Assembly: GCA_003194525.1 (NCBI GenBank)
Contig: NBIV01000046.1
Location: 124,001-188,000, forward strand
Length of the DNA: 64,000 nucleotides
From: Gracilariopsis chorda
Taxonomy: Eukaryota; Rhodophyta; Florideophyceae; Gracilariales; Gracilariaceae
Reading direction: 5' to 3'
Both the position numbers and the translations under genes were made by a program. The notes under the pieces were generated by a model. It saw nothing but the letters and a program-made list of their open reading frames with translations, did no database searches and was not told the origin of the DNA. Positions 28,113-64,000 of this stretch are shown here, piece after piece (position 1 is the stretch's first letter; each line of letters opens with the position of its first letter).

Positions 28113-28126
28113 TATCCCCCCCCTTA
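28113..28126 (-). other. Polypurine tract (plus-strand primer)
   Basis: On the minus strand AAGGGGGGGGATA immediately precedes the 3' LTR start TGAAGTG, the position and composition of a polypurine tract. Confidence 0.75.
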
Positions 28127-28169
28127 AGACGGGAAAACGACCGCGGACGCGGAGGATTCCCAGACGAAA

Positions 28170-29957: not shown

Positions 29958-30148
29958 AACCTCTAGTCCAGTTTCCTGGTTCTTCTTTCCCTGGCTATGC
30001 CAGTTAGTGTAGTGTAGTATTGTGGGGAGCTAGCTGCTCCCTTGAATAAACTTTCCCGTTTAGAACGGTGCTTCTCGGTTGAGTTCCCCGTCTTCGATGG
30101 ACCTTGTCTTGTTATCCTTTCCTTTCGCTCTCCGCTCGCACGGCAACT

Positions 30149-34537: not shown

Positions 34538-34790
34538 AGTACGGAGTTTTTGTCGCGGTGCGACTATGGCACGTGGCTGAATTCCAGCGCTTCCAGTGCT
34601 TTTTCCGGATCAATCCGGTCGTTGCTCGATGGAGCATTGTCCTTTGGAACAGGTGTGGTTCGCAATTCCGAGTTACTCGGTATGTTCGACGCTGAAGTAG
34701 CGGTTTCCTCCCCCTCCTTAGACTTGACGTCTTCGGACGGCGGGGCGAACTCCTCAGAAGAGGTGGTAACTCCGAGTACATCGGTGGCTG

Positions 34791-35708
34791 TCATCGTTGT
34801 TGGCAGCATTCCCATAGGATGGGGGTTACACTCCCAATTACTTGGTGTTTGACCAGATACTGGGGGTGTTTGCCAAGGTTGGCAACCAATATCCGGAAAG
34901 GGACATCCGGGGAAATGGAGACAATTCCATTAGCCAGCGCCAGCTGGGATTTCTCGCACAGCGAGGCGAGGGGTTGTCTAACCTGAAGACCGTGTTGACG
35001 GGAATTTACCTGCACCCAGACTTGGGACTCAGCCGGTATAGAAACCGAGGCAGCGACGCGGAGCTTGGTGGACTCGCGGGACGCCGGCAGTGGTTCCTGC
35101 GCAGCAGGGAGCGGAACTTGTTTCCGAGAGGACCGCTTTAGCGGGCGGCGAACAATTGGAACCGACGATCCGTCGTCAAGTTCTACACGCCTGAGGCGGG
35201 GCCTGATTGCGTCGACAAATCTGTCGCAGTAATCACATCCCAGTATGACTGGTGCTGCCAATGAACGGCAAACGATGAAGTCCAACTTCACCACAGAGGT
35301 ACCAAGTCTCACGACGAGGTCCACTGTGCCCACCGTTTGTAACGGATTGTTGTTTGCATCCGAAATGTCGGGGACCGCGTCAGAGCGGATACGCGACCGC
35401 ACAAGCGGGGGTAACAATGATTCCACAACAAAGTTGGGGCCTGCACCTGTATCCAGGACGGTGAGAAACCTCACCATAACCTGGGGATCAAGGCCAAGGT
35501 CGGCATAGACCTTATAATTGCGTTTGGCCAAGACCAACACTCTACCGGGAATCCGGGGATTTTTACTCCGTATCCACGGGCGACGCAACACACCGAGGTG
35601 CGCAGAGTCCGCGTGAGCGGTGTCTTTCCTCGAGAGGACTTTCACCGGGGAGCGAGGCGAGGACGCCTCGGGCGCCAACAGCCTCGTTCTTGAGGACGCC
35701 TCTCCCAA
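34791..35708 (-). CDS. Gypsy aspartic protease region
   Basis: A 305-residue ORF with FLTVLDTGAGPNFV, the DTG active site of retropepsins, and VILGCDYCDRFVD, the later hydrophobic-G motif. It cleaves the polyproteins. It is in the -1 frame relative to gag; the reading then moves -1 again at a run of five C (minus strand, near 34820) into a spacer ORF (34564-34815) before RT. Confidence 0.85.
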   Translation of the reverse strand: MGEASSRTRLLAPEASSPRSPVKVLSRKDTAHADSAHLGVLRRPWIRSKNPRIPGRVLVLAKRNYKVYADLGLDPQVMVRFLTVLDTGAGPNFVVESLLPPLVRSRIRSDAVPDISDANNNPLQTVGTVDLVVRLGTSVVKLDFIVCRSLAAPVILGCDYCDRFVDAIRPRLRRVELDDGSSVPIVRRPLKRSSRKQVPLPAAQEPLPASRESTKLRVAASVSIPAESQVWVQVNSRQHGLQVRQPLASLCEKSQLALANGIVSISPDVPFRILVANLGKHPQYLVKHQVIGSVTPILWECCQQR

Positions 35709-35725
35709 AGGGGAGACTCCCTCAG

Positions 35726-37900: not shown

Positions 37901-37987
37901 GAAAAAATACCGTTACGACGGGAAACGATCACGGAACTTCCGGTAAATAAAAACAAACCTCGTAAGAGGGAAAACAAAAACAGATTC

Positions 37988-38005
37988 TAAGTCAGGAGAC
38001 CACTT
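37988..38005 (-). other. Candidate primer-binding site
   Basis: On the minus strand the bases after the 5' LTR read AAGTGGTCTCCTGAC. TGG 3 nt after the LTR, pairing with a tRNA 3' CCA, fits a primer site; I cannot assign the tRNA. Confidence 0.4.
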
Positions 38006-38829
38006 TGTGGTGCAATGCCCCAAAGGGGAAAAACACCGAAAGACGTTCGGGATCTTCCTCTCACGAGGTGAACCCAGTTGGGTAGAGCCCTCCCAGAGCT
38101 GTCACGGCGAAGCCGGTTTGTAAGACCAGGGACACCTGTCGCGACTCGCGCAGGGAGGTAAAGGCGAAGAATCGGTATCCGCGTGAGCGGGGTGTGGTCC
38201 TCACTAGAGGTATGTTTCCACGTAAGTGGGGGTGCGTGAGCGGATGCGCACACGAGGGCCGCGGATAGCGGGAGGTGCTACCCTAAAAAGGGGAAAAGGA
38301 AGGGCGAAGAGGAGGAAGAAAGGGCGAAGTGAGTCGCGAGAGCGACGGGGACGAACGGCGATGCTGGTAACAATATCCCTATACAGGACGAAACACCAAT
38401 GCAATTGGAACAATTATACTCCCAGTGATGGGTCCCTTTAGATGTGCAAGGGGGTTAGATGTCCCGTGGTTTACGGCGTTTCCCTCCAAGGAGGAGTAGA
38501 GTACGCGCGCAAGCGGCAACAACTAGAGCCAATTCCCCAGGTTGGGGTCCCTTGTTGGGGATGGTTTACTGGTGCGACGGCAGTGCGCCATGGCACTAAG
38601 TACTAGCTTCCCAGAAATGGGTGTGAAAATAATAAATAATATTAACTAAAATACTCCACATTTCGTGGCAACATCCAATACTGTGGCCAACCGCCAATTG
38701 ACCCAAAACCGTGTCCCACGTGTCCATATCCACCATAGTGGGGCGTAGTTCATATACACACTACACAACCGATAATATCGGGAAAGCGTTCAAGTACCAA
38801 GAATCCCTCCCTGAGGGCGTTGCACTTCA
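38006..38829 (-). repeat. Gypsy 5' LTR
   Basis: 824 bp; on the minus strand it begins TGAAGTGCAACG and ends CATTGCACCACA. It carries CCCCAAAGGGG and similar mini-hairpins like the rest of the element. It should hold the promoter of the genomic RNA. Confidence 0.92.
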
Positions 38830-39640
38830 TAAAATCCAGGTTGACATAGGTCCGAATATTTCCTAAGTCCAAGGCAGTAAACCCACCTCTAATGTATCAA
38901 AGTACTTCTTAGAATTCTGAGTGCCAGTCGAAAACATCAGATCACTGACACCATACAATGATATTACACCCCATACCATGACTGGGTTGCTTCCAACAAC
39001 ACGGGATGAGAAGCGCCAGGGCTCCGTACCCAAATTATGCCATTAATACGACAGACAATCTAAACCATCAATTTTGAACTTCTTCTCATCCAAAAACAGT
39101 ATTTTGTTCCACAACAATTTTCTTTTGATATGTTTCGTCGGGCCCATTGAAGAAGTGCAACCTTATGATGCTCGGTCATCTTCGGTCCTTGCATCATCTC
39201 TGAGAACTTGAGCGTATCATCTCCTTTCGATAGCTGATGTACGCGACGAGCGGATATGTTGAGATTTAGATCTTTTTTCAGATCGGATGCATTAGAATTA
39301 CCCTTCCGTGCTTCACTTAACAATGCGCGATGTTGCTGCGGTGACAGTTTGCGAAGTGTTTTGGCAATACTTAGTGAGGTTCGTTTCGGATTCGAACTTC
39401 AACAACTTCGGACCGTCCCAACTGAGCGTTTTACTTGCTATACTATTTGTCGTAGAGAGTTTCCTTCGTGGTGGAGTGCGAATATTTATCCTTTTTCGAA
39501 CTGAGACTAGTACTTTCTCTTGCCATTTTGGAGTTTTGCATTGAGAGAAGTAATGAGCAGGGTATTTGCAGTGACTGATACGATGTAATACAAGCCCAGG
39601 ATTTTGAATTGGAAGAAAGTTCCGCCTTTTTTGTGACATG
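38830..39640 (-). pseudogene. Tc1/mariner transposase, N-terminal and first catalytic part
   Basis: HTH-region sequence (SARRVHQLSKGDD) is followed by MMQGPKMTEHHKVALLQWAR and the first catalytic Asp in the context FLDEKKFK (in the frame next to the 39060-39323 ORF), then WGVISLYGVSD. Stops and frame changes are present. The reading continues across the Gypsy insertion: the last codons here (TWIL) join QQDC at 27288, where the second catalytic Asp lies, once the 5-bp TAAAA duplication is counted once. Confidence 0.85.
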
Positions 39641-42493: not shown

Positions 42494-43525
42494 ATGGGTA
42501 TGTCAGGAGCAACACCTCCCGAAGGGCAAACGCCGCGGGTGCTTCCAGCCCTTGACGCGGCCACTACGGCTGTTATTAGCACTCTTTTTGACGCTAAGCT
42601 ACAGGCTTCATTCGCAGCTCATACCAATGCTGCTCTGCAGCCAGGCCCGGCGAGCGAAGGCGCGCCACCGCAAGATCCACAGCATCCAGTCTCCCCTTCT
42701 GGTGGGAGCGCCCCACCTCCACAACTCAGCGGAACAGCAGCTCAACCGTCCGGCACTGCCGCCGCCCTCGCCGCCGCAGCCTCAGGAACCGGTGCCGAGA
42801 ACCCCAATCAGAGAGGCGAAGGATCTTATTCCGAAGGAGAAGACCCAGAAGAAGACACTTACGGGCCTCAGGCCTTCGCACCCAAGCGGTACAAGGCCCA
42901 CCGTTGGGCAGAGATACCAGTCCGGTTCGAAATCCCACCAAGGTTTGACCCCTCCTACCCTGTCGGGTTTGAGCCAGAGAGTATCGCGCACTATCGAACT
43001 TTCTCAATCCCCGGAAGTTCTACAGGGCGCGCTGAGGAGGGTTCCGGTCTGTACGCCACCGCTGCGTACCTTACTGAGGCTTCTAACGCGCTTTTCGTCA
43101 CCGTCAATGACCTTGTCAGCGTCCTCAATCCACTACCGGACGAGACAGACTCCAAAGGTAAGCGAGATCTACGCAGCGCCATCACCGCGTTCTTTGACGC
43201 TCAACTCTGCACGTTTGGGATTTATGAGCTCACGGCATCACGGTACGAGGTATTTGCAGGGAAGCAAGGGGCGTTTGGAGTTGCCGATCCGGAGCTCTTG
43301 TCCGCCTACATCAATCCCCCCGCCACATACAGCTCCACTGGGAGGCAAGGCTTCCGCCGTCAGAAAGCTCAAGAGATCCGATACGCCGCACTTACCGCCG
43401 GTTGCAACCGCGGACGTTTGTCGGAAACTCTCCGCGACCTTACGCAGCCCAAACCTTCGAAGGGAGATCGAGGTAGAGGTAGGGGTAGAACCAGTGGCCG
43501 CGGGAGAGGCCGAGGTAAACGTTAA
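42494..43525 (+). CDS. gag: DIRS-like Gag, Arg/Gly-rich tail
   Basis: An intact 343-residue ORF. The first ~130 residues are Ala/Pro/Gly-rich and disordered, the middle is globular (AYLTEASNALFVTVNDLVSV, AITAFFDAQLCTFG), and the end is an RGG-type RNA-binding tail (GDRGRGRGRTSGRGRGRGKR). The position before RT and the tail suggest the nucleocapsid-like protein of the element; there is no zinc knuckle. Confidence 0.7.
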   Translation: MGMSGATPPEGQTPRVLPALDAATTAVISTLFDAKLQASFAAHTNAALQPGPASEGAPPQDPQHPVSPSGGSAPPPQLSGTAAQPSGTAAALAAAASGTGAENPNQRGEGSYSEGEDPEEDTYGPQAFAPKRYKAHRWAEIPVRFEIPPRFDPSYPVGFEPESIAHYRTFSIPGSSTGRAEEGSGLYATAAYLTEASNALFVTVNDLVSVLNPLPDETDSKGKRDLRSAITAFFDAQLCTFGIYELTASRYEVFAGKQGAFGVADPELLSAYINPPATYSSTGRQGFRRQKAQEIRYAALTAGCNRGRLSETLRDLTQPKPSKGDRGRGRGRTSGRGRGRGKR

Positions 43526-43679
43526 CGATGTTGCCGCCCTCCGTGCGGGTGGGCCAGGCGTTGAGGGCCTGATATAAGATCGGAGCAAGCGACTGGTTAG
43601 TTCGACAGCTGCGCTTTGGTCTACAGCTCCCGTGGACACGGGGTGTCCCGTACCGCACGCCACGCCCGTACTAGATGAA

Positions 43680-44526
43680 GAAAGAGGAGCAGGAGTTCGC
43701 GAGGGAGGAGATCGGTCGATGGCTAAGCTTGGGGTTTGTACGCTGAGCAACGCCGGAAGCGGGACAGCAGCTGCGCCGCAAAGGGCAGGTTTTTCCTGCT
43801 TTTATCACCGACACGGCTGGAAAGCAGCGGTTGGTGGTCGACTACAAGAGAGCGAACGAGTGTATGGAAAGTCGTACGTTCCGCATGGACCAGATATCAG
43901 ATCTGGCAGCGGTCCTGGGACCGGGCGATCACCTCTTCAAGGCCGACGTCAAGGACGCCTACTATCATCTGCGTCTGCGGCACGCGGACCTGGTTCGATT
44001 GGCATTCATGGTGGGAAACGGCATCTACATACCCCTCTGTATGAATTGCGGTTTCGCAGTCGCGCCCTGGTTTTACACGAAAGCGATGCACCCGGTCGTC
44101 GCCTTCCTCCGTGCTCTGGGACACCGGGCGTTCGCCTACTTGGACGACTTCTTCGGGGCCGCGAAGGCAGGCCGGGGGCGGACAACGACGGACAAAGAAG
44201 ATACGCAGCAGCTGGGATCGTTCATTCGCGCTCTGTTCGGTCGGCTCGGGCTGCTTTTGCATCCGTAGAAGTGCTAGTTCAAGGGAGAAACCTGCCTCGA
44301 GATCCTCGGGATTGTCGTGGACACACGGCGACAGCAGTTCCTACTCTCCCCACAGACGCTCGGGAAGTTGGAACTCGCTGCGCTGCGGCTGCTTCGACAG
44401 TCATCAAGGAACCGCCGCCACGTCCGCGCCTGGGACATCCGACGGTTCGCTGGTCTCACGAATGCCGCCTCGCCCGCGGTTATCGACGCCCGACTGCGTC
44501 TGCGCGAACTGTTCGACGCATTGTAG
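43680..44526 (+). pseudogene. DIRS-like reverse transcriptase, three in-frame stops
   Basis: Reads in one frame: EEIGRWLSLGFV, then LVVDYKRANECM, FKADVKDAYYHLRL, CGFAVAPWFYTKAMHP and catalytic AYLDDFFGAA, then a connection segment (ILGIVVDTRRQQFLLS). Stops are TGA 43744-43746, TAG 44266-44268 and TAG 44275-44277, with no frame shift. TGA falls where Arg (CGA) fits the context. Confidence 0.85.
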
Positions 44527-44666
44527 GGGAACATGGCGAGCCCCAAGCGTGGTCACGACTGCTCAGAAACCGGTCAAGTCGTGCCAGAAGGGCGAGGACA
44601 GGGGCCAGAGGGCTTATCATACCTCTCTCCAAAAATTTTGCTCCACAGGGCACTCCGTAGAACTCC

Positions 44667-45491
44667 TTGCGGAGGGCGCGGATTTCTCGCTGGAGCCCCA
44701 GTCTCGCACGGCCCAGTCGCGACCCGCAATTATCTCACGCAGCACTTCGGGACTTGCACTGGTGGACCAGCCTCAGCAGAAATCCCTTTGTCGCCCGGCA
44801 CATATGGTCAAGACCGGACGTATGCGTCTTCACAGACGCCAGCACGGCGTGGTGGGGAGCTGCTTGGAACGGAACCGTACCTGCTGCGGGCTTCTTCACA
44901 GAGGAAGAGGAAGGCTCTCATATCAACGAGTTGGAACTCACAGCAGCCCTCTACGCGCTCAAGAGATTTCTCGTATTCGCCCTTCACCGCCATGTGCAGC
45001 TCGTGACAGACTCCCTAGTCACCGGCCACATCGTCCGCAACCTCACAAGCCGGTCTCCGCGCCTACTCTGCAAGCTTCGTCGCCTGCGCTCTATTTGCTA
45101 GGCAAACGGCGTCACGCTGTCCACGCGCCACCTACCCTCTGTCCTCAATTGCTGGGCCGACCGGCTTTCGCGGCGGCGCGACAGCTTCACTTGGGACATT
45201 CCTCGCGATGCTCGGCTACTTCTAGAAAGGCGTCTACGTCTGCGATTTTCACCTCTCGATGGCAAAGCCTTACCAGGCGGCCGACCGCCTCCAGGCATAC
45301 CAGTTGTCCTTCCGCGCCCGTCCCTCATAGGAGTGTGGGCCCGCAAAATGTTAGCGGACGAGAATGGGGTACTCATCGCCCCCCAATGGGAAGCTCAGCA
45401 ATGGTATCAGTCAGCCGCCGCCCGGACACGGTCAATGCGGCTGAAAGAGTCACTGACCCCACCGTGGGAAATGGTCATGTTCAGATTCTAA
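44667..45491 (+). pseudogene. DIRS-like RNase H and linker region
   Basis: In the -1 frame relative to RT: VCVFTDASTAWWGAAW (first Asp), SHINELELTAALYAL (Glu), VQLVTDSLVTGHIVRN (Asp). After a TAG at 45099-45101 the same frame continues with NGVTLSTRHLPSVLNCWADR, the segment typical of DIRS elements between RNase H and recombinase, to a TAA at 45489-45491. Confidence 0.85.
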
Positions 45492-46543
45492 GAGAAGCAG
45501 GCACGCGCTGGCGCGCACAAGGGGTGGCGGGGGCGCAGGCTTTGCTTGAAAATGCGGCGGGTTCGCGTGAAGCATCCCATCTCCTGGCTCGTACACTCTC
45601 TACTACTACGCCGGAAAGCTACCAACGCCACTGGGAAGCGTTCACACGATAATGTCAAGCAGAACACCTTGCCGCCCTTCACGCCTTACCATCGACTATA
45701 TCATGCTACATCGGTACACTCTTCGCCCGCGCCACCATAAGAGGTGGCTCCCGTCGCTCTTACGTGGCGGCCATTGGAACACAGCATCGTCGATTCGGAC
45801 TACAAGACACCTGCACTGATCTCTTAGTTGTTGCAACGCAGCAAGGCTACCGCACGCAAGACGCGGCTCGCACTTCTGGCGCACCTCTCAGATCTGCAGC
45901 ATTGCCTGCTCCGCTCGCTGCCCGGGCTCTCCATATGCCTTTAGCCTCCCCATCTACCCGAGATCTACAGCACTGGGGCTTAATTGCTCTATGCTTCTTG
46001 CTATGTGTTCATCCGACGAGCATGCGCAATTTGTGTCGTCAGGACGTGAAGCTCGCAGAAGACGACATAACATTGCAGATGCGCGTATTCAGATATGGGG
46101 AAACAGCGTTCGCGCCACGCATCGCACTGTACATTCCTCGTTGCTCCGGACCCGACTCAGCTGGATGCATCTACACGTTGATCGCTTCGCTCGTACGGGC
46201 CACTACTGCTCCGCACTTCTGGCTGTTTCCAGGCACAACGGATAGTCAACCAGCCTCCACCGCTTCGGTCGCCGCAGCGCCTATTGTCTTCACAGAAAAT
46301 ACCGCACCTCCATCCGGGTCACAATTTACTGTTCGCTCCCTTCGGAGCGGGGGTATTTCGGAAGCCTATGCGGCAGGGGTCCCTCTTCCCGTTATAATGC
46401 GTCTTTCGAACCACCACTCAGAAGCAGTGGTTCACAAACACTACCTCGATGCTCTGATGCCTTCTACGCCTGCTGCACGTCTATTTTTCGCGCGTTTCAC
46501 GCGCTCTGCCCGGTCCGCTACTAGTGGCCTCGGTCTCGCTTAA
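45484..46543 (+). pseudogene. DIRS-like tyrosine recombinase
   Basis: Again -1 relative to the RNase H frame. The N-terminal core-binding region (LARTLSTTTPESYQRHWEAF) is cut by a TAA at 45650-45652; the catalytic part (45764-46543) is open. HPTSMRNLCRQDV carries the first Arg, RSLRSGGISEAYAAGVPLPV the second box, NHHSEAVVHKHYL the His and nucleophile Tyr. It integrates the circular cDNA. Confidence 0.85.
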
Positions 46544-51117: not shown

Positions 51118-52003
51118 TGAAGGTTACCGGGCAACAAGTACCGATACTCCCGCACGGACATGTTGTTATTTAATTAATTTTTAGAGGTAGGGGATACGGC
51201 CCAGGATGGTCATTGGCCTCTCTCTCCCAGTAATACACAGCAGTTGAGATAGAACCCCGAGGGACGACAGGTGTATGTGTTATGGTAAGTGCGCCAACCC
51301 CCTCGCCGAGTAAAAGCAGACGCCATCCCACCAAACCGACTAGTATCTTGTTTTTGTTGGCAATACCGACTGCCCACTAGCCTTTTTACTAACCGGCACG
51401 GTAAACCAATAGCGGCGCACCACTGCCAACACTCTACATGTGTCCCTCACCACGCCTGACGCAGATGCCCGTTCTTTTTCGCAGCCCAGTGTCTCCTTAC
51501 TTCGACCGGTTTGAACCATCGAGCCCACGTCGGTGTTCTCGGAATGCTAGATAGAGGTGCTAGATCGCAAGTTTCTTAGGCAAAAGCTCAAAAATACTAC
51601 GAAAATGATAGATTTTGCTAGTTTCTGGCGCTTGCCAAGTAAAAAAATTCTTTTTTGGAATTCACACTTCCATATCTTACAGAGCCTTGCCTCACCTGCA
51701 CTGCGCATCGCTAGTTTCAAGTTTAGAGCAAGTTCATTCTCCACTAAAAGCTAGATACAGATCTCGAAATGGCACTGGCCGCTGCGCGGCAAGCGCCATT
51801 TCGAGCACCCAACCAAAACTAACATTTTTATTTCCATCTTTTGAATTTCAAACTTCATGCTGCCCTAGTTTGACTTCCAAATCATCCTCAAGAACTCATC
51901 TGGGCAGCTCTCTCCGTTCTCACACACCGGATGCACCGTGCATCAGATTCCAATACCACCCACTCCGTCGTCCTAACAGCCTCAACGACACTCCTAAACA
52001 TCA
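51118..52003. other. Junction to the methyltransferase cluster
   Basis: No gene recognised. It contains the hairpin at 51763-51805 and may contain the left boundary of the cluster that follows. Confidence 0.35.
51763..51805. repeat. Compound palindrome
   Basis: The outer arms CTCGAAATGGC and GCCATTTCGAG are perfect (11 bp); inside them GCCGC and GCGGC form a second stem. It stands about 200 bp outside the last gene of the 52-64 kb cluster. Confidence 0.7.
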
Positions 52004-52807
52004 CTAGCCTTCTTCTCCCTCTTCTCTCTTTCCATGCCGCCTCTTCAACCGACTGTTAACCTCCAATCCTTCTTCGTCCTTCTCCTCGAACCTCCTTTTC
52101 ATGACCCCTCTACTTCCAGGACTAACCGGAGACCCACTCCCGACAGCACCTCCCACCCCACCTTCCCCTCCACCTCCATACATCTTGTTCCGCATATCTT
52201 TGAATAGATGCACAGCCCTTTCCACCAGTAAAAGCCGCTTCTCCAACTCCAAAATCCGTCCTCGCAACTCCTGATTCTCTTTTCACAGGCTCCACAACTC
52301 CTCTCCCACACACGCCACAACCCAATCGACGTGCTGCTCTGCCCACACCCCAGCCTCCCTCACCCTCCGGCGCAACTCAGCCACAGCACCCATCGGCACT
52401 TCTTCCTCCGGCGCACTCAGAACCATCCCTCCCAACTCCACGACAACCTCCTCAATACACTCATCCAAACGCTCTTTAAGCCCTCCCCCAGCGCTCCTCA
52501 ATAGTTCATTCACATCGCCGTAGAACCCATCCATTCGTCTCCCTCCACCTCTCCCTACCCCTCCTCCTCGACCACCCTCGCCCGCACCTCCCTCCCCACC
52601 ATCCCCTCACATCATCGTCCCAACTCCAAGCTCCCCGAGCCCAACAACCGCCTTTTCGTCGCGCCTTTCACCATCACCATCCCATTCCTCATCCCTCTTC
52701 TCCCCCGGAGACGTCTCCGGCACCTCTTTCATCTCCGCTTTATCCAACAACGCCAGGAGCTCCTCATCATTCACGGATCTGCTCGACATGGCTACTACAT
52801 TCCCCAC
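52004..52807 (-). pseudogene. Basic/acidic coiled-coil protein, two in-frame TGA
   Basis: One frame from Met at 52807 to 52004, broken by TGA at 52607-52609 and TGA at 52283-52285. The N-terminus is acidic (DEELLALLDKAEM), then Gly/Arg-rich, then helical (MDGFYGDVNELLRSAGG, LRRRVREAGVWAEQHVDWV) with a leucine-rich coiled coil (RGRILELEKRLLLVERAVH) across the second stop, and a basic tail. I do not recognise the family. Both stops would be Arg if CGA. It is in the same orientation as the ParB-like gene. Confidence 0.55.
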
Positions 52808-53013
52808 CCCAACGGTGCTCCGGTTCCCAACCCTCTACCGCCAAGGGTGCACACTCCAACTACTTATCCTTCCCCATTTTTTCAATCCCCTGTTTTCGCA
52901 CCATTTCCCACCGCCATACCACGTGTCCTACCAATGATCAGAAACAGCCTATCCAGGACAACATTTTAAAACTCAGTCACCCTAAGTATGTAGAGGTAGA
53001 AATACAATGCTAT

Positions 53014-54210
53014 CTAAAGGAATGGTCGAAAACAAGACCCAAAAGGCCTCGGTTGCTCTCCCAGACTCGCAACATACCTCTCAAAATTGTACTCTAAGTC
53101 CATATCCACAGCCATATCTAAAAGCAACAACACAAAAAAGATAGTGTTCTCTACTACAGGCCCCAGTCCCCTTACATTGTGCAAAGAAGTCTCCCTCACA
53201 AATGTAGATATCAAACACGTAAATACCACAGGGAACACCCTTCCACTAAAGAGCCTAATAGCAGCCACACCATCTGTTATCCCCACCACCTTCTTCAAAC
53301 CCCCGCATACAGTCACGCAAACACCAAAAATCAGCTCACCAATACCTCTCTGCACATATCGAAGCCCTATCTCATTGTTAATGCTGTCCCCAGTCACAAA
53401 GAACATCGTCAGCCGCTCCACAACATATGACAGAGCCCCAAACCTGAACCCACCACTGAAAAATGCAACAGCGCCAGTCTTAAGTTCCGTTCTAAGCGAC
53501 ATTGGGGTTCCCAAGAAATGATAGGTAACAGAAATACAAGCATTCAACGGCACCAGACCTCCCACTGTGAATCCAAGTAGTCTGTTTCGAATCACAGAAA
53601 ACCTTCTCAGCCGTTCCCTCCCCCTCAATCGTACAAAAGCCAATGAACCAAAATACCTCCTATGCAATGAGGACACAATATCGAAGAGAAGCCAATTCAA
53701 AACCGTCTCCAATATCACCAAAAATAAAATCTTCGGAGACATCATATCATCACCCACCACATAATGCATTAAAACTGGTTTCAAAACCCCATAAAGAACA
53801 CCAATGGCTAATGAAAACATAAACGCATATGTGTAACACCCATTAAAGCTGAACATGTGTCCAAGGCTTTTAGAAAGGTTTGACGCACTCTCCAGATACT
53901 CATTTACATGCGTACTGCCATACAGCATGTGCAAAAAATTTGCATTCGTTAAGATATGATTATATGTCGGTATAGAGTCGAGAACTTCGTATATCTTCGT
54001 CACATCCTCTAAAACTCCAGCAGTCAGCAACCTCGAGGCCCCTCGCACAACACCCTTCTCCGTATCCGTGTTGTACCGAATTTCAAGTACTTCATCAAAC
54101 CTCATCACCGTCTCATTGGGAAAGATGTCCACATGTATACGGGTCCTCCGGTCACTGACCGAAAATTGCAAATAGTAGTCATGGTGCGTGTGGATGTTCT
54201 CAAATGACAT
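53014..54210 (-). CDS. Multi-pass membrane protein, unknown family
   Basis: An intact 398-residue ORF. About six or seven hydrophobic segments, including YAFMFSLAIGVLYGVLKPVL, ILFLVILETVLNWLLFDIV, LLGFTVGGLVPLNACISV and TIFFVLLLLDMAVDM. The N-terminal ~120 residues are soluble-looking (HTHHDYYLQFSVSDRRTRIH). The spacing of charged loops recalls carrier or Mpv17-like proteins (for example LRGRERLRRF between segments), but no diagnostic motif is present. It is the only gene of the 52-64 kb cluster with neither stop nor frame change. The flanks are AT-rich. Confidence 0.7.
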   Translation of the reverse strand: MSFENIHTHHDYYLQFSVSDRRTRIHVDIFPNETVMRFDEVLEIRYNTDTEKGVVRGASRLLTAGVLEDVTKIYEVLDSIPTYNHILTNANFLHMLYGSTHVNEYLESASNLSKSLGHMFSFNGCYTYAFMFSLAIGVLYGVLKPVLMHYVVGDDMMSPKILFLVILETVLNWLLFDIVSSLHRRYFGSLAFVRLRGRERLRRFSVIRNRLLGFTVGGLVPLNACISVTYHFLGTPMSLRTELKTGAVAFFSGGFRFGALSYVVERLTMFFVTGDSINNEIGLRYVQRGIGELIFGVCVTVCGGLKKVVGITDGVAAIRLFSGRVFPVVFTCLISTFVRETSLHNVRGLGPVVENTIFFVLLLLDMAVDMDLEYNFERYVASLGEQPRPFGSCFRPFL

Positions 54211-54844
54211 GAATCTTCAAGAGTCGTGAATGAATGTTCAAAAGTCGATAATTTATGTCTAACCTCTTCACTTGAACCAACTTCGTCAGTGCTTAAATGC
54301 ACAGCTTATCATCTTCTCATTTGCTCACCCCTTTTGTCCTTCCCAACACACAAAATAATATTTTGAACCTCTACACGATAATGCCTTCACCCTCTTCACT
54401 CTTCTTCATACATCAAGCACGCCACAATGCATTCATGTATGAAAAGAACCAGTACTTTCTATATCAACAGAATGGATAATCGCGGTATTTGGCTATAACA
54501 ACGGGATCCTTCACACCCGTACAATCACCTTCAATTCTCATACATAATCCCATACTCAATTTTACATCCATTCGTGTTTCATATGAGCTGCCCCTTCATT
54601 CTCCCCTCCAATACACCCATCCCAAGTTTCTTCTCATACTTGTAGACCTTTCTTTATGGAATAGAACAAAGCGAAATCTTTTTAGACATCATCCCTTCAT
54701 TATTACGCATCATTCGAATGAAGCCGCATAAAAAGTAATCCCCATCGTAGTAAACCTCTCCCATTCACTATAAACATTCACGATAAAGATCAAAAAGCAA
54801 TCATCAGATATAACAAACGTATATCACTAGTTTACTTATCATTA
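54211..54844. other. AT-rich intergenic
   Basis: About 630 bp between the stop of the oxygenase-like ORF and the start of the membrane protein gene; no ORF of note, no repeat seen. Confidence 0.4.
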
Positions 54845-57262
54845 TCAATCGATTTCATCGTCCTCACCTATCAGACCCTCTGCTCTTTTTGGAACCATTT
54901 CACCCTCATCGTCATCCTCCTGTTCATAATCTCCATCAGTGTTGATTTCTGCTGGCTTCAGTATATGCTCATCGTCTTCCTCATCCGACGGGTTCTCACC
55001 TTCGGCTTCTTGCATAACTACATCTCTATCTTCAGCTTCATCTCCCCGCTCCTCTTCCACTCCTCTCACCTCAGATAAATCGCCACGGTCCTCTTCATCA
55101 TTAAAAAAGGGAGGGCAGAAACCGCTTTGCCTATGCACCGCATCCGGGAGATTGTATCCCTCAGGTACAAAGTACATATGGTATCGCATGCAATAGCCTT
55201 TCGCTATTGCATCATTGTACTTAGCCCTAGCATGAAATACATCCCCTCTTCCAATGAACACAGAAAACCGTGGAACTCTGAAGTTCCAAACCATCATAAA
55301 AGCCGAAAGCTCTTTCAAGTTACCCCGTGTCATTGTTAGAGTATGTGACCGTTCACAAACCCAAATCATGAACGCATCCGGTCCCGATGCCACTGCAAAA
55401 TACCCCGGGTTTACATTTCTCATCCTGTCACTCTCCGTCAAACCGCTCAAATCCGTGTGTAGCACCTGCCTCGGACAATCCTCTCCAGTACAAAGGATAC
55501 GGCCACCCATTTGAGGGGCATACATCGTTCCACCTTCAGACAACCCGAGAGCCGCTGCAATCTGACCGAGTCTTGCATCCAACATGGCTCTCTTTCGAGC
55601 AAGAACCGCACCGTTTTCAAGCTCTTCAATTCTGTCCGCAATCCCTCGTTTGGTTGTGATGAAAGGCCCCACCGCCTTCATATCATTCTTAACATCCTCT
55701 ACCCCTCCTGCATTGATGATCATATTCCAGAAAACACGATTCGCTTCTTTCGTGAGATCCGGTTGCGAAACAAATTCGCGTTCGAAGAAGTCCATCAGTT
55801 CTCCTATCACATCTTCGTCCATTTGCAGTCCCCTTTTCGAAGCCTCACTAGCCATGCCTTCATCTGTCCCGAAACTTTCCAGCACACAAAACCCTCTCTC
55901 TGACAGCTCCACTCTCTTCTTCGCAAAGCAAACACGAGCCAAGTCCTCTCTCTCAAAAGCGGCCATCCATAACGCTTCCTCTTCATTCGGTGCCGTTCCT
56001 GATGACGGCATCTTCACGCCCAGCATTGCACGTGTCATAGTACCCATCTCTTTGTGCATGTTGCGCGACGCACGGCAGTACACAGCATGATGAATAATTC
56101 GGAAGTCATCAGGTGATAGGCACTCCGCCCGATGTTGCTTCCTCAGATTTATCCTCTGCATCCATGGATGGGAATGATTCACTGCATTTCCGCTTGCAGG
56201 CCACTCACTCGGCAACGAGTATACCAGGTCCACCCAAGACATGTCCGCTCCCATAGCCAGCTCTCCTGGCGTACGTAAGCCAGCTGGAAGCTTGTCAGGA
56301 CTCTTATCGTCAAAGCTGCCTACGGTTTGCTGCTCCTCTGCCTCGTCTTCCTCATCACCCACAAAGTCCTCCTGAGCTTCATCTTCGCTTGACTCGAGCA
56401 CAATGATCTCCTGTGCTGTCAACCACCTCTTCAAATCTCTCCTTTCCATACTACGCAGCACCTCCACCACCTCCTGCGAGAAACCAAATCCAGGTCGCTT
56501 CACACCAGGTGCAGTCGGCTTACGATTCGATCGTCTCTGCCTCTTCACCGGTGGCTCAAAATCAACTGAATCTTCATTTTCATCTTCGTCCAGGACCTCC
56601 ACTTTACGCTTTCTTGAGATTCGCTTACTTCTTCGAGGCTCCTGGTCAGCGTTCGGAGGCTCCTGAGCAGCTTCCTCATTCAGATCAAGCAACTCGATCA
56701 CGTCCACATTGGCCGCAGAGGGAGCAACAGCAGTAGCATCCTGTCCCTGCATGCCCGACAAAGCGCTGGAAAACTTCCTACGAACCTCTTTCACCTTATT
56801 ACTCACTCTGGACTCCAGTGAGCTGCGGTTCCCTTTCGTATACCACTTTCTCAGACGAAATATGATATACTTTGACACAGTCTGGTCAGAATCGCCGATG
56901 GTAACCGTGGTATTCATCACTTCCTGTACATTCTTTTTCTCCTTCATGGAACTCCCCAGCTCACTGCAAATGTCATACGTTCTAGAAGCGCAGTCGAAGA
57001 AGTACTTTCGGAAATCCTCAAACGGTCCCATCTTCACAGTGGCCACCGACCTCACTCGAACATGCGCCTGTAGACATTGGTTAGTAAAACGAAACTTATC
57101 CCCTGACATTCCAAGCAGAATATCACTAGACACATGAGTGATTCCAATTTGAGGCGTCTCCTGCCACACCACATCGAAGAACTCTAACAGACCGGGATTA
57201 CGCGCAAACTTCAGAGCAAGAGCAGAATGGCGATTGAAATGACGTATCTTCCCTTCTTTCCC
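54845..57262 (-). CDS. 2OG-Fe(II)-oxygenase-like protein, -1 frame continuation of the ParB-like gene
   Basis: The ORF is open from 57262 (no ATG near its start; the first start-type codon is GTG at 57172), so it probably continues the upstream gene. Residues are numbered from 57172. The first ~130 are helical; ~150-330 are acidic/basic low complexity (RRSKRISRKRKVEVLDEDE). Near residue 569 QVLHTDLSG gives an HxD motif, near 646 GRGDVFHARAKY gives the distal His, and near 662 YCMRYHMYFVPEG the Arg, in the order of Fe(II)/2-oxoglutarate dioxygenases. The end is acidic. In phage and some eukaryotic systems such domains oxidise modified bases; the substrate here is unknown. Calling it an oxygenase rests on motif order alone. 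Confidence 0.6.
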   Translation of the reverse strand, partial: GKEGKIRHFNRHSALALKFARNPGLLEFFDVVWQETPQIGITHVSSDILLGMSGDKFRFTNQCLQAHVRVRSVATVKMGPFEDFRKYFFDCASRTYDICSELGSSMKEKKNVQEVMNTTVTIGDSDQTVSKYIIFRLRKWYTKGNRSSLESRVSNKVKEVRRKFSSALSGMQGQDATAVAPSAANVDVIELLDLNEEAAQEPPNADQEPRRSKRISRKRKVEVLDEDENEDSVDFEPPVKRQRRSNRKPTAPGVKRPGFGFSQEVVEVLRSMERRDLKRWLTAQEIIVLESSEDEAQEDFVGDEEDEAEEQQTVGSFDDKSPDKLPAGLRTPGELAMGADMSWVDLVYSLPSEWPASGNAVNHSHPWMQRINLRKQHRAECLSPDDFRIIHHAVYCRASRNMHKEMGTMTRAMLGVKMPSSGTAPNEEEALWMAAFEREDLARVCFAKKRVELSERGFCVLESFGTDEGMASEASKRGLQMDEDVIGELMDFFEREFVSQPDLTKEANRVFWNMIINAGGVEDVKNDMKAVGPFITTKRGIADRIEELENGAVLARKRAMLDARLGQIAAALGLSEGGTMYAPQMGGRILCTGEDCPRQVLHTDLSGLTESDRMRNVNPGYFAVASGPDAFMIWVCERSHTLTMTRGNLKELSAFMMVWNFRVPRFSVFIGRGDVFHARAKYNDAIAKGYCMRYHMYFVPEGYNLPDAVHRQSGFCPPFFNDEEDRGDLSEVRGVEEERGDEAEDRDVVMQEAEGENPSDEEDDEHILKPAEINTDGDYEQEDDDEGEMVPKRAEGLIGEDDEID

Positions 57263-58788
57263 CTCTCACTGCTCCACAACAACCCCGTGATTTGGCTTGG
57301 TTTAAGCTTCGACAAATCATACCCATCCTGCTCTACGCCATTACGAATAAACGAAACAGCAGTGTGAATCTTATCTGCGAAGGGCATCACCAGAACATTG
57401 GAGCTCAAATCATTCAACGTCTTCCCCAGCCACAACATCTCATTCAATGTCATTCTCCGGCCGTCGTTCCGTTCCCAAAGCATGATGTTCAAACGAGCAG
57501 TAATCCGTGCCCATTTCGCACCATCCTGCTCGAGTTCCAGTAGAACACTCACTCGATGGAAGCCGTCCACCAAAACCACAGGAACAATCAAACGCCCACT
57601 CGCATCAATAGCGTCACGAACCGGCACATCCTCCAACAGGGCCACCGCAATCGACCCAAGAGAAGGGAGCCATCCGAATTTCCTCAGTTTGTTCGAAGTA
57701 TCTCGAAGATGTTTGTCATTCTTCGAACGAACCATGTTCTTCGGAAATCGAATGTTGTGGATATCCACTACGCCATTGTGCTGGTCATAATCATGTCGAT
57801 TGATGTCTAAGACCCCCAAACTGTTATCCACCTCTTCCCAAGGAACAGCATCACCGTCATCATATAAAACCCTCTCCTCCGGATCAAGATCGTTCCTGGA
57901 GAGTACAGGCACCTCTATGACGTCATCATCGGAGCTTGCTCCGACTTCAGGGCCTCCTCGGTTACCAGAGCCGCCCGCGAGAGCACCTGATGTTCCTCCA
58001 CCGCTCTGACGGGTTTTCACCAGAGCCTCTCCACCGCTCTCAAGGCTCTTCACCGGCGCTTTGGTCACCAAAGTGCTTGATGGTGTACCAGCAACAGCGG
58101 GAATGCGCTCGACTTGTCTTGCAGTGGTCCTGGAAGCTGTACTTCTGTGGACAGTTTTCACATTTGCTCCTGACTGCGGTGGATCCGACTCATTCCTCTC
58201 TCCGCCTTCATTTGTGACACTCATCATCGCATTGTCCCATGCATATAAACCCGCTGAAACCATCTCCTTCAAAGTTGCGGGTGGTTCCTCGGGACCCCCA
58301 AAAACATAAGGGTACTTCTCATCTTGGTGTGACGAAGTATTTGTCTTAAAGATAACCACCAAGTCCTCTCTAGGTCTCTGCGTAGAGGACAGGGGATGGT
58401 TGTGTAGTGAACGACAGAAGCTCGTCCCCGGCCCCGCAGCAACCCCCAAACCACGCAAGTTTGCCTCTCCTACCTTCACCTTCGCATCACTACTCCCAAC
58501 TCGTACGAACAGATTGACCTCCTCATCGCCCTTAAGCACCTGACCCTTATTGCCCCCAATTGATGGCTCAGGGTGGCTGGTAGTTCGGGTGGCGCCCTGG
58601 CTCTTCACTTTGCCTTGCGTGGTCGGCATCTCGATAACACGTCTCTTCGGCGAAACAGGCTTCCTCGGAGTCCGTTTCCGTGGTGGCGCGTTTATCTTAT
58701 TCCCAGTGGAATCCATGGTTGAGTACTTCGAAAGTCCCGCGCTTGCGCTTTCTTGGCACCCGCTGACGTCAAATGCTCCCGTGATCAC
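57211..58788 (-). CDS. ParB-like (Spo0J/ParB N-terminal) domain protein
   Basis: 525 residues. The first ~300 are disordered and basic; the likelier start is MDSTGNKINAPPRKR (Met ~25). ParB-like fold from ~340: VVDIHNIRFPKNMVRS, KFGWLPSLGSIAV, VVLVDGFHRVSVLLEL (the nucleotide-binding box near 403-412), and NEMLWLGKTLNDLSSN (helical DNA-binding part). In bacteria and phages this domain is a CTPase/nuclease that is often linked to DNA-modifying enzymes. The last ~15 residues are probably out of frame: at 57256-57262 the minus strand reads G GGA AAG in phase, and the -1 frame from there continues into the oxygenase-like ORF. Confidence 0.72.
   Translation of the reverse strand: MITGAFDVSGCQESASAGLSKYSTMDSTGNKINAPPRKRTPRKPVSPKRRVIEMPTTQGKVKSQGATRTTSHPEPSIGGNKGQVLKGDEEVNLFVRVGSSDAKVKVGEANLRGLGVAAGPGTSFCRSLHNHPLSSTQRPREDLVVIFKTNTSSHQDEKYPYVFGGPEEPPATLKEMVSAGLYAWDNAMMSVTNEGGERNESDPPQSGANVKTVHRSTASRTTARQVERIPAVAGTPSSTLVTKAPVKSLESGGEALVKTRQSGGGTSGALAGGSGNRGGPEVGASSDDDVIEVPVLSRNDLDPEERVLYDDGDAVPWEEVDNSLGVLDINRHDYDQHNGVVDIHNIRFPKNMVRSKNDKHLRDTSNKLRKFGWLPSLGSIAVALLEDVPVRDAIDASGRLIVPVVLVDGFHRVSVLLELEQDGAKWARITARLNIMLWERNDGRRMTLNEMLWLGKTLNDLSSNVLVMPFADKIHTAVSFIRNGVEQDGYDLSKLKPSQITGLLWSSERGKKGRYVISIAILLLL
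57256..57262 (-). promoter_or_regulatory. Candidate -1 frameshift heptamer GGGAAAG
   Basis: It fits X XXY YYZ in the zero frame of the ParB-like ORF (AGG GGA AAG). Slipping back gives GGG AAA GAA and enters the oxygenase-like frame, which is open from here. The alternative is loss of one base from the G4 or A3 run. I did not confirm a downstream pseudoknot. Confidence 0.35.
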
Positions 58789-58929
58789 GTATGCTTGGTT
58801 CCAAAGAGAAGGACGTAAGCACTATATATCGTTTTCAAGACGTTTCATGACATCCATTGTCGTCAACGTAGCATCCCTGCAATTCCCCTCCCAATTGCTT
58901 GCATTTCAAAAAGAATTTGATAATTTTTT

Positions 58930-59077
58930 GGTCGAGGTCCGTGGTCCGAGGTGTCGTGGTGCTCCATCGCGATAACGATGGAGCGCCAGGACGCGAAATT
59001 TTAATTAAAATTCATGCCTGGCGCTCCATCGTAATCGCGATGGAGCACCGTGACACCTCGGAACACGGAACTCGACC
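58930..59077. repeat. 148-bp nested palindrome between divergent genes
   Basis: Two ~65-bp arms match with roughly eight mismatches around an AT core (AATTTTAATTAAAATT). Each arm has its own hairpin: GCTCCATCG, a 6-nt loop, CGATGGAGC, 9-bp perfect stems. The outer ends are GGTCGAG and CTCGACC. It can form a cruciform with two side hairpins. It lies 142 bp from the ParB-like start and 280 bp from the first ATG of the methyltransferase frame, so it could be a replication origin, a recombination site or a shared promoter element. Confidence 0.85.
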
Positions 59078-59356
59078 CAAAACGAAGAGAAACATAATCC
59101 GTGGCAACCAAGTCAAAAGCGTCTTGCGCATTCTTCGCAACCGCATTCGTTGGGTCGGTTTGGGCGATTGAAAACTTCTATTGAACCCGAAGAACAACTT
59201 TTTCTTGTTAAGCAAAGCACCGGAGTGGTCGTCTCCAACAGTGTTACCCCTTTCCTTCGAAGCTACCGCGACCACTCCCTTTCTGCCATCCGCCCTGTCT
59301 CACCGCTTGGAACCTCCCGTGACTGCTGCGACGTCCGCTTACGACACCGCTATTTC

Positions 59357-62300
59357 ATGAGCTCCTCTATAGAAGAAGTTACCATGGTGTCCAGCCCAGC
59401 CTCCACTGTAACCGCGAAGGAAACGGGTTCATTCAAGATGCACTGAACCGGAGAAGAGCTTATTGATGCTTATCTGGCAGTTCTTGATGACTACGCAGCG
59501 ACGAGGCAAAATGTGGATGAGCCGAGAAGTTTGAAGCACACCGACTTTGTGGAGTTCGCGGTACAAAGTCGCAACGTTCCTGACTCTGCCAAGAAAATGT
59601 TTCTCACTCTCATCGGACCGGATTACATCTCGTATTCGGACTCCGAGCTCCGTAACATGTCTCTCAGAGGCCCTCCACGTCAACTCTATCTTATGGCAAG
59701 AATGGTGGACGTAAAGGACCGTGAAGAAGACAAGCGTGTATGGGACGTTTGGAAGGTTTATTGTAAAGGGGAAGGGCGTAAAGGAATTCCCCGTAACGTG
59801 TTGCTATCTGTCTTTTGCAAGTCCCGTGTTCTGGGAGCAACCAAGAAATCTTCCGCTTTCCACACGGATCCTTGCACCGACTTTGAAATGGTCATTGGGT
59901 TTTCTATGGTGCAAAAGATTGCCATGGATAAGAAAGGAAGTGGTAGGAAGAGGAAAAGCGGCATGGCAGCTAAGAAGTTCTCGAAAGTGGGTTTGTCGGA
60001 CAAGACCCAGAGTCAGAGAGTCGGGTATGGTGTGCAGCTGGTGACCAGGGCTCGGCATTGTTTCGCCCAATTCGTCGGGTTTCCCAACGTTGAGTTTATG
60101 ATCTTGCCTTACATTCGACTCGACTATATCAGTGTAGTCTTCACCGATATCGCACAACGCTGCATGGGCTTCCAACACAAAGATTATTCCAAACCGTTAG
60201 TGGAGGAGAAGAACGTCACCACTGTAGAAGAAAACGTTACCAAATGGGCATGGAATCTGCCGGATCCAGTGGATACAGCGCTTCGCCTTTGTGCCAAAGA
60301 ATACCTTGATGACCTTTGAAATGCGGTGGTACAATAGAAACTGTTCGACATCTCTGCTCCCAGCAAATTGGATGCCCTCAAAAGGTTCATCATCACGAGA
60401 ACGAGACTGTTCCCTCTGCGGTTTGAGAACTTTAGTGAATCTCTTGTCACTACGGTTCAAGAGGCCATAAAGCCTCTGAAGCTCATTGCATTGCATGGGA
60501 GCAATGTCAAATTACATCAAACTGTGAAACCAAAGCCCGCAGAAGACGTTGAGATCATTATGGAGCCGGTAGAAACTGGTACGGCTGGTGGTGGGAACGA
60601 ACATGCTGAGCGTGTGGAAGGTGGTGATAAAGGTTTGTTGGAAGAAGTGGAAGAGATAGAGATGCTAGAGGATGCGGAACGCGGTACTGCAGAACTTGGT
60701 ACTGCACCAAAGGTCACTGAAGGACTGCAGACAACAGCTTTGTCGCAGAACTTATCGTATGATGTCGAAGGCACGGGGATTCGTGCACCACCGTACCCTA
60801 CGACTTTGGATGATGTGATAGCTTACAAGTATTTTGAGAAGGAGATGTCCTGCAATTTCCATCTCCACAACTGCAAGTTCGAAAATCTCATCGACATTGA
60901 CGACAACAAGTCTGGCGAAAGCGAGGTATCTATTGAAGGAAGGGTACAGTTCCTGATTTCCGATCCGCCATATGCGACTCGTTCTGAGCGTCTTTTGGAG
61001 AACATCGAACACGATATTCTGACCGAGAAGGGCATGAGCAGGTCAGCGAGAAGGTATTCAAAGCTTCTACGTCCTGGTGGACATATTATACAGTTCTGCT
61101 CATGGGATCAATTACCGTTGTGGCGGGATGTGCTACGGAAAGTTACCTACATGGATGACTCTGATACGAAGCGTTACTCCTTTGTCGTCGACGAACAGCC
61201 CCTCCATTTCGTACGGTATTTAGGTAATACGACGGGTAACGTTGGGAGAAGAAGTTGCCGGTTGCACCAGACGACAGAAAACGCTGTACATGCTGTTCGT
61301 TCTGGAGTTCCTTATGCACAACAGCACCGGATGGTCAACTATGAGAACTTCAATTATGTTGCTTCATGATACCCAGCGTATCATGCAATCATGGATCAGG
61401 TGCCGCCGATGTGTAATAGTGAGATGCTCATGTGGTCTGTGAAAAACCCGGATGGGAAGTATACGAGGAAGAGGGTGCGACCGGAACAGAAGTGTAGAGC
61501 ACTGTTGAAAGAGCTGATTTGCAGGTTCAGTCAGCCAGGAGACCTCGTGGTCGACATGTTTGCCGGAACGTTCTCGACAGCGATGGCGTGCATGGAACTG
61601 CCCTAGCATCGGAAGTTTGTGGGGTGTGAACCGGACAAAGCTTGCTTTGAACACGCCAGGCATGCCGCTATTGTTCGCTTCGCTTCCATAATACGGGAAG
61701 GACACACGGATATTGCGAAGAGCCAGGAGCTTCGAAAGATGGCCCATTGTGTTTCCTCTGCATTGCCAATGGGAAGAAGCAGGCACACCGTGTTATGGAC
61801 GGCTGTCGACGGATTTCCACCGTACCAAATTCTTCCCCCACACCTTGTCGACTTTCTCTCCACTTTGTGGCAAAGTGAAATTCTAAGAAAGTTGGGAAGG
61901 AAGAAAGCTATAGATGGATGGCCGAGGGAGCTGCAGGGAAGAATGAATCTGGAGAACATGAAGTCTCTATTGGAAATGCAGGCTGTGCAATGGTTGCGAG
62001 TGGGCAACTCTACTATTCGTCACGAAAAGGCTGGTGTTGGAGTGATTGCAACTCGTCGAATTGCTGCAGGCGAGGTAGTGTGCTATTTCTACGGGACGTT
62101 GGTTTATCATGACCTTTCGAATCAGAAAGAAGCGCACAAGACCTACGGGGAGGGAGTCATGGTTGTGACGAAGGATCGCTTCCGGAAGTATGCGGTGGAG
62201 ACAGAAGTCTACGGTCAACAGTTCCAATCAATTCCGCATCGAAAACAGCTGACCTACTGGCATGGAAAACAATTAATCCCCATTTTGTGGGTGGTTCCTG

Positions 62301-62542
62301 CCCCTTTTTGTATTGCGGGGTATATCAACGATCCAAAGTACGTGGAAGGGGATAAACAGTTAGATGCCATGGTGGATGGCCTAGTGAAGAAAAGGGAGGC
62401 TAATGTGCGAATGAAACGGACACCGGGAGTGGGACGAACACCAGGCGGAATAACGGACTACAAACTTATTAAGATGGAGGCGACAGCCGACATAGAGCAA
62501 GGAGAGGAACTCTTCGCCAGATACGGTGATGTTTGTGACTGA
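59357..62542 (+). pseudogene. DNA methyltransferase (beta-class) + SET domain, five in-frame stops
   Basis: One reading frame, no frame shift, from ATG 59357 to TGA 62540-62542 (1061 codons). Stops: TGA 59444, TGA 60317, TAG 60335, TGA 61367, TAG 61604. Part 1 (to ~60319) is an unrecognised globular domain. Part 2: catalytic DPPY at 60962-60973 (SDPPYATRSE), LLRPGGHIIQFCSWDQLP, EMLMWSVKN, then VDMFAGTFSTAMAC (SAM-binding motif, 61550 on), the beta-class order of N6-adenine/N4-cytosine DNA methyltransferases. Part 3 is a SET domain: GVGVIATRRIAAGEVVCYFYG, AGYINDP, ADIEQGEELFARYGD. Methyl transfer to DNA and to protein lysine in one chain would be unusual. Stops TGA and TAG fit CGA and CAG decay. 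Confidence 0.75.
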
Positions 62543-62884
62543 CAAACCCTTTTGAAGGTGGAGGATGGAACGATAGTCATTGATTAGTTTCTTGTTATAA
62601 ACCTTTGTCCACAGCTTGGCTAAAGGGTGACGTTTATAATTTGAACGGATGTGTAGTCCTAACTTAGGAGAACATCACTCTTCAGCAAGGATATAAGATA
62701 CAAAGCGATATAGATGTGATACAGAAACGTCCATTTTCGGTACCACAGAGGATTGTACTCTCAAGATTTCACAAAAAACAAAGAATTTTGTGCGCATTGG
62801 GTGGCGAGATTTTCCCGGACAACACACGGCGTGCGCCATCCCAGAGCGTCACTAGCCACTTGAGAAAGAGGTTAGACTCCAAGA

Positions 62885-63991
62885 ATGGCGCCGAAGGGAA
62901 AGAAGCGAGGCCCGGCAAGGGGTGGTGTGGCGAGTGTGCCTAAGACGGGGCGAAAGGCTATTGAGAAGCGAACGGCGAGTGGAACGAAAGCGAAATCATG
63001 TGTTCCCAGGAGCGAATTATCGGGGAGGAGGTCAGGAGAAGATGATTCGAAGACAGGGGGAAGAGTTGGGGCAAAGAACGTCTGATCCGAGCGCACAACG
63101 AGTGAGAGCACGGCGAATGAGAATTTGAAGGCTGATGCCCACGCGCATGTAGCACGTGGGAGAGATTCGGTTCGGGAACAGCGATCTATGCCTGGGTCTG
63201 GTGGTGGGGTGGAGGGTAAGAAAGGGTCGGTTCCTAGGAGAAGGGAGGAGGTACCAGATCAGGGAGGGTTGAAAGCAAATGCGCGGGTCGAAGACCGAAA
63301 AAAAGATGAAGAAATGCCGGAAAAGAAACAAATGGAAGAGGCAGTTGCGCTGAAGAGAGGTGGGGCCCCAAGGGGAAATCAATATGGAGGAGAGGTAAAT
63401 GTCCCTTTGGTAGAGAGTGATGGGGACAAAGAGGATCACATTGTGAAGGGGAGATGGACGAGAGAGAGAATAAAGGAAGGAGTGGGACGCCGCTCTGATT
63501 TAAAGCAAACGCGAGAAGTGGAAGAAGTGGTCAGAGCGACGGATGGAATACAGGAAGCATGGAGAAGCGGAGAAAATACGAGCACCCCGGTACGGGCGCG
63601 AAAGGTGCAAATGGCTCAAGACTTGGAAAGTGATAAAGGATGCAGAACGCCGTGGACTCCGGAAGGAATGCAAGAGAGGAAACGAAGTGTTCATCGGTCG
63701 CCAAGTGAGCCTGCTGAGGAGCGACGGCTGCCTGTCAATATTTCGGGAGATGCAGGGAATGAAGACATCGGTGTGATGTGTCGATCTTCGTTAGTTGAGA
63801 GGGTCAATATGTGGAAGGCAGAACTCGGGCAGATCAAAGGGGACCACTGCAGCCTAAAGATATCGCTTAAGCTGACGCAAGAGGAACTGAAGGGGATGAA
63901 AGAAGAGATGAGCGAGAAGAATATGCTGATAGATAGCTTACGGGAAGGGATGAAGGTGAGACGAGGGGAGAGAAACGGATCTGAAGGTTAA
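62885..63991 (+). pseudogene. Basic low-complexity protein with C-terminal coiled coil, one in-frame TGA
   Basis: One frame from MAPKGKKRGPARGG, broken only by TGA at 63083-63085, then open to TAA at 63989-63991. The N-terminal two-thirds are Lys/Arg/Glu/Gly-rich and disordered; the last ~70 residues form a heptad-like coiled coil (LKISLKLTQEELKGMKEEMS). No family recognised; it is similar in style to the protein at 52004-52807, which has the same mix of low complexity and coiled coil. The gene lies downstream of the methyltransferase-SET frame in the same direction, 340 bp on. Confidence 0.5.
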
Positions 63992-64000
63992 AAGGAATTG

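Follow-up and report, generated by a model that had tools for sequence, protein, structure and literature searches.

The window analysed here, a 64,000-nt stretch of the 91.3-Mb Gracilariopsis chorda assembly (G000:C46:124001-188000), contains the left 12.5 kb (51528-64000) of a Plavaka-type DNA transposon of 17592 bp, which was delimited by comparison with four other copies. The transposon seems to carry enzymes of its own with which to mark DNA and chromatin. One of its genes fuses a DNA methyltransferase to a SET domain, and a second, divergent gene fuses a region with ParB-like motifs to a predicted 2-oxoglutarate (2OG)/Fe(II) dioxygenase, with a long palindrome between the two. We favour the view, as the probable one, that this cargo is an element-targeted writer/eraser pair that keeps a Plavaka-group transposon expressible in the face of silencing.

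The element runs from window position 51528 to the window-equivalent position 69119 (G000:C46:193119), its right end lying outside the window. It is a terminal-inverted-repeat DNA transposon, with termini CGTCGGTGTT..ACACCGACG. The left repeat, on the plus strand, comprises 23 bp (51528-51550) and pairs with its partner at 69097-69119 in 20 of the 23 positions. A 2-bp target site duplication, CA, occupies 51526-51527 and recurs after the right end. Perfect duplications (CA, AT, TA and AA) flank four of the five two-ended copies, and the fifth, C6, departs from the pattern with mismatched flanks (TT/TG). Copy C63 matches the window element end to end over 17.6 kb at 93.9% identity, C6 shares both ends around an internal deletion, the ends were also located in C112 and C35, and the match to C167 and C67 is limited to the left ~9 kb. 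A mid-element probe gave 40 scored places among 101 candidates in the same genome, the window copy counted, with long matches elsewhere that are 90–94% identical. In a young family, gene C is 99% identical between copies C204 and C550 and intact in both. The transposon has probably amplified recently and is probably autonomous. An initial annotation of the window, made from the sequence alone, had proposed a mobile eukaryotic element at 52004-63991; the 40 places of the central probe, the shared ends and the duplications in four of five copies bear this out, and the genome search gave many copies in place of the single-copy locus that would have spoken against it. The features of that block hold, but its extent does not, since it covers ~12.0 of the element's 17.6 kb.

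The transposase, gene F, is encoded on the minus strand towards the right end, outside the window, and matches the Plavaka profile (PF18759; E-value 4.1e-19, 69.4 bits, cut-off 26.3). Searched over its own genome, this profile has 114 matches, with the window element at 70 bits, and none of 14 control genomes has a match. CPRC and HILDH strings are present in the transposase frames of C46 and C63, where H(3-4)H strings are frequent by chance. The 2-bp target site duplication agrees with the 2 or 3 bp given for Plavaka elements in the available text of PMC12730594. The fungal clades described there end in TGT..ACA (PlavakaA) or CATCA..TGATG (PlavakaB); the termini of the algal element fit neither, which weighs against the assignment, and the element is therefore classed by its transposase type, outside PlavakaA and PlavakaB.

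Mapping of open frames over seven copies yields six genes per element, in the order A (-), B (-), C (-), D (+), E (+) and F (-). In the best copies, genes C and D each consist of a single long frame, with signs of introns absent; both are interrupted in the window copy. The two pairs of open reading frames (ORFs) that the initial annotation saw running into one another are fusions, because each pair is one frame in other copies.

Gene D occupies two segments of the plus strand in the window. The first (59513-61369) comprises an N-terminal domain without family assignment and the first part of an N6/N4 DNA methyltransferase with its DPPY motif (ORF 60368-61369, plus strand), and the second (61619-62542) comprises the end of the methyltransferase and the SET domain. 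Methyltransferase and SET lie in one open 1065-aa frame in copies C53, C241 and C745. In C63, the N6_N4_Mtase family (PF01555) is matched with an E-value of 1.2e-13 (52 bits, cut-off 26.7), and DPPY and MFGGTF, the latter an FxGxx motif, can be read directly in the same frame. In the window copy, the match reaches 57 bits across two internal stops, and the DPPY ORF on its own has no Pfam match. The SET domain (PF00856) is matched over the full profile, positions 1–105 of 105 (E-value 5.6e-7, 30.4 bits against a cut-off of 22.4). The rightward methyltransferase followed by SET, as first annotated from motifs, is thus confirmed by two profile matches above cut-off. Four public G. chorda entries (P0004-P0007) match gene D at 68–87% identity, one of them named 'DNA adenine methyltransferase YhdJ', and three further relatives of the methyltransferase were found besides these. 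Such gene D-like entries, including 'YhdJ', are probably transposon genes and not genes of the host.

Gene C lies on the minus strand, with an N-terminal ParB-like motif region (DGxHR; 57211-58788) and a C-terminal 2OG/Fe(II) dioxygenase domain (HxD...H...R; 54845-57172) that reads HTD...GRGDVFHA...R in the window copy. Both ORFs had been annotated as a leftward pair, and they form one intact, fused 1417-aa frame in C204 (L037 448-4701) and in C550. The 2OG half has 66 matches in its own genome, and a homologue search in which the best 7989 candidates by shared words were scored yielded ten relatives from beyond this genome, drawn from the lgn, ena and jgi sources, that align with both motif sets. 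Pfam profiles gave no match to the 2OG domain. The predicted structure (421 residues, 10 sequences) supports a double-stranded beta-helix fold of the 2OG/Fe(II) dioxygenase type, and HxD...H and R are conserved in the aligned gene C-type proteins, with the D missing from one of 11 sequences (P0001). Tet_JBP (PF12851) is not matched by the 11 gene C-type proteins in Pfam searches at E-values up to 10, and a search of the genome was empty in a run in which no control genome matched either; TET/JBP entries are absent from the fold matches listed, which speaks neither for nor against such an affinity. Of the two original domain calls, the dioxygenase is thus upheld by the predicted fold, whereas ParB failed every profile test. 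The ParB identity of the N-terminal part is unproven and stands at the level of sequence motifs, for which 'ParB-like motifs' is the appropriate term. Relatives of gene C were not found in IMG/VR with its profile (one peptide pattern) or with the outside protein P0011 (six patterns), and tblastn against phages returned a single meaningless match (E-value 3).

The palindrome that separates the divergently coded genes C and D (58925-59082) has 66-nt arms that are 91% complementary. It is present in all seven copies compared and doubled in two; C204 carries two there, a perfect one of 86 bp (L037:4764-4849) and one that is nearly perfect. Its position is common to two families separated by a synonymous divergence (dS) above 1. 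The 86-bp sequence was recovered at 40 scored places among 55 candidates, with full-length identity at 31 of the 40. Genes C, D and F all neighbour it at three of the 40 places, D and F at 18, F only at eight, D only at four, C only at three and none of them at four. These neighbourhoods form a graded series of deletion derivatives, to which truncation at contig ends and the limits of the searches also contribute. The palindrome may serve the ParB-like protein as an operator or loading site, act as a bidirectional promoter element or mark a hotspot of deletion.

The arrangement of the cargo is fixed wherever its parts occur together, as counted from genome-wide match lists, which contain fragments and contig ends and yield minimum numbers. 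Of 150 methyltransferase matches, at least 59 have SET within 3 kb, in all 59 cases downstream on the same strand; at least 73 have the Plavaka transposase within 12 kb, in 71 cases downstream on the opposite strand (convergent); and gene C lies within 15 kb of at least 40, always upstream and divergent, leaving 110 without it. Counted from gene C, a methyltransferase lies within 12 kb of 48 of the 66 matches, in divergent orientation every time, and is absent near the other 18. A neighbouring methyltransferase is also lacking for 26 of the 85 SET matches, among them the ten strongest, which look like host genes.

Cargo sequences were further compared between families by the ratio of nonsynonymous to synonymous divergence (dN/dS), using the Nei–Gojobori count. 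Between the window family and C204, dN/dS is 0.159 for the 2OG half, 0.203 for the ParB half, 0.128 for the 2OG core (the C63–C204 row) and 0.148 for the N-terminal part of gene D, with synonymous sites near saturation (proportion of differing synonymous sites, pS, 0.61–0.66; dS 1.27–1.49). The comparison of C46 with C63 was left out (out of frame, 25% identity). The 2OG halves retain 67% protein identity. For one pair of sister copies, dN/dS is 0.71. The low ratios between families and the high ratio of the sister pair indicate that the cargo has been under purifying selection through the transposition history, with single copies decaying.

From these parts, their fusions, their order and the selection on them, we infer that the element writes and erases marks on itself to escape or tune silencing. 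The methyltransferase–SET protein would mark the DNA of the element and neighbouring histones. The ParB-like/2OG protein would bind the central palindrome, perhaps spreading from there, and would oxidatively strip a methyl mark at the palindrome. Acting together, the two proteins would protect expression of the transposon from host silencing, or set its timing.

Several observations weigh against this reading. Profile searches with Pfam, PHROGs, NCBIfam, PADLOC and PDB all gave no support for ParB, nor did hhalign of gene C with P1 ParB or part of SopB; a fold model of 936 residues and 4 sequences was too poor to bear on the matter (predicted local distance difference test score 35.8). The fold matches of the dioxygenase are to what we take to be PhyH-like enzymes, with mostly small-molecule substrates, so the substrate of the predicted enzyme may be something other than DNA. 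The palindrome is present in deletion derivatives too, so that its role may be that of a promoter hairpin or a site prone to deletion. No SET lies near 91 of the 150 methyltransferase matches, and no Plavaka transposase near 77. In C550, gene C is intact and the transposase frame open, with a methyltransferase frame of only 398 aa; in C745, gene D is open and gene C is broken. Genes C, D and F were seen intact together in no single copy, so autonomy is no more than probable.

The strongest alternative to a writer/eraser pair that sustains expression is that the cargo restrains the transposon, the methyltransferase–SET protein silencing or licensing copies (to control copy number or to evade the surveillance of the host), with the 2OG protein as a minor regulator. 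Methylation writers acting on DNA and histones are often repressive on repeats, and the methyltransferase could equally limit copy number; the purifying selection on the cargo and the writer frame, uninterrupted in three copies and matched by both domain profiles, are as expected under this alternative. We regard it as a less likely explanation, though one of substance: the same unit encodes an eraser-like enzyme, and in the available text of PMC12730594, transposon dioxygenases are interpreted, without experiment, as anti-silencing factors.

It is unlikely that the cargo is mostly passenger DNA caught by chance, with the transposase alone of importance. Many derivatives lack gene C or D, as shown by the eight palindrome places with Plavaka only and the 18 with methyltransferase and Plavaka and no gene C match, and the cargo is interrupted in many C46-family copies. 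Against this stand the between-family dN/dS of 0.13–0.20, the fixed gene order and the ten outside proteins with both gene C motif sets.

A virus-derived or viral element, the other origin named in the initial annotation, is highly improbable: a match to a phage capsid family lies far below the Pfam cut-off (E-value 0.041), the fusion of methyltransferase and ParB domains in phages (PMC12704722, available text) speaks for it, and matches of the gene C fold in a viral structure library (best E-value 5.2e-6, similar in strength to those in the PDB) would be given by any 2OG fold and, on the predicted model, show a common fold only, whereas the element has clear transposon ends and a Plavaka transposase, gene C relatives are absent from the viral contigs and phages scanned with few patterns, and eleven translated ORFs of the element (gene A excluded) matched no viral Pfam family above cut-off, whether capsid, polymerase, packaging or other structural and replication genes of a eukaryotic virus or provirus.

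The closest known systems are other transposons. Kojima (2025; PMC12730594, available text) describes TET-positive Plavaka and other fungal DNA transposons carrying a TET/JBP enzyme. The algal element resembles the former in its Plavaka-group transposase, its 2-bp target duplications and a captured 2OG dioxygenase of a kind thought to counter silencing; it differs from these fungal elements in its host and in its ends, CGTCGG..CCGACG, and may differ in its dioxygenase, which in theirs is of the TET/JBP type. The main text of that paper mentions neither 'ParB' nor 'red alga'. Plavaka 'giant repeats' are known from Amoebidium, and genes of this kind gave database matches in dinoflagellates or red algae in the same study (PMC11244446, available text); these differ in reaching 50 kb and in having tyrosine recombinases as named cargo, and 'SET domain', 'ParB' and 'adenine methyltransferase' are absent from the main text. 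HarbingerS and MuDR transposons of Phytophthora likewise are DNA transposons with a SET histone methyltransferase gene, of other transposase superfamilies, and are known here from one published mention (PMC12730594). ParB-CTPase/N6_N4-methyltransferase fusions of phages also combine both domain types in mobile elements (PMC12704722); there, ParB is fused to the methyltransferase, whereas here the ParB-like part, its identity unproven, is fused to the dioxygenase. Neither this combination, nor a transposon-borne methyltransferase–SET fusion, nor this G. chorda element is described among the open-access literature matches listed, a scope that leaves Repbase and most subscription papers outside. 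The original statement that no element of such composition had been described therefore holds within those matches, with close precedents in PMC12730594 and PMC11244446 as far as their available text goes.

The remaining genes of the element were characterized by eye and by frame mapping. Gene A (52004-52834, minus strand) encodes a coiled-coil-like protein; it is an open frame of 277 aa in copy C35a and is interrupted in the window copy. Gene B (53014-54210, minus strand) is an ORF for a membrane-protein-like product of 398 aa that matched no Pfam family. Gene E (62720-64000, plus strand, continuing to ~65227 outside the window) is coiled-coil-like and includes an ORF of that appearance at 63125-63991; a Pfam scan of two parts gave no family above cut-off. 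The membrane-protein-like ORF of gene B and the coiled-coil-like ORF within gene E are present where they had first been annotated.

Elsewhere in the window, an element resembling a long terminal repeat retrotransposon (27289-38831) is bounded by ~825-bp direct repeats (27289-28113 and 38004-38831), with integrase- and reverse-transcriptase-like ORFs, identified by eye, between them; further matches to it lie at window-equivalent 75992-84000 and in C167. Also by eye, ORFs at 42494-46543 resemble a DIRS-type or tyrosine-recombinase element (recombinase-like ORF, 45764-46543), a copia-like polyprotein ORF occupies 935-3730 and a piggyBac-like transposase ORF occupies 24766-26388.

The host setting gives the cargo a wider interest. 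A review, in its available text, reports that ~8% of the G. chorda genome is methylated, with a bias to non-CG sites. A six-frame search of the assembly, ignoring introns, found no match to C5-cytosine methyltransferases (PF00145), so an eraser of 5-methylcytosine would be odd here; an MT-A70 search of the genome was empty in a run in which no control genome matched either. Set against the reported methylation, the lack of a PF00145 match points to the methyltransferase encoded by the element as a candidate source of DNA marks. That the transposon family, and not the host, provides much of the alga's DNA methylation is a speculative and doubtful extension. If true, these elements would both write, through the methyltransferase–SET protein, and erase, through a palindrome-guided dioxygenase, an element-borne mark that the host tolerates. 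In a lineage in which the source of DNA methylation is unclear, this single mobile unit combines a writer, the fusion of a DNA methyltransferase with SET, and a likely eraser, and it makes testable the idea that selfish elements supply and sustain epigenetic marks of their own.

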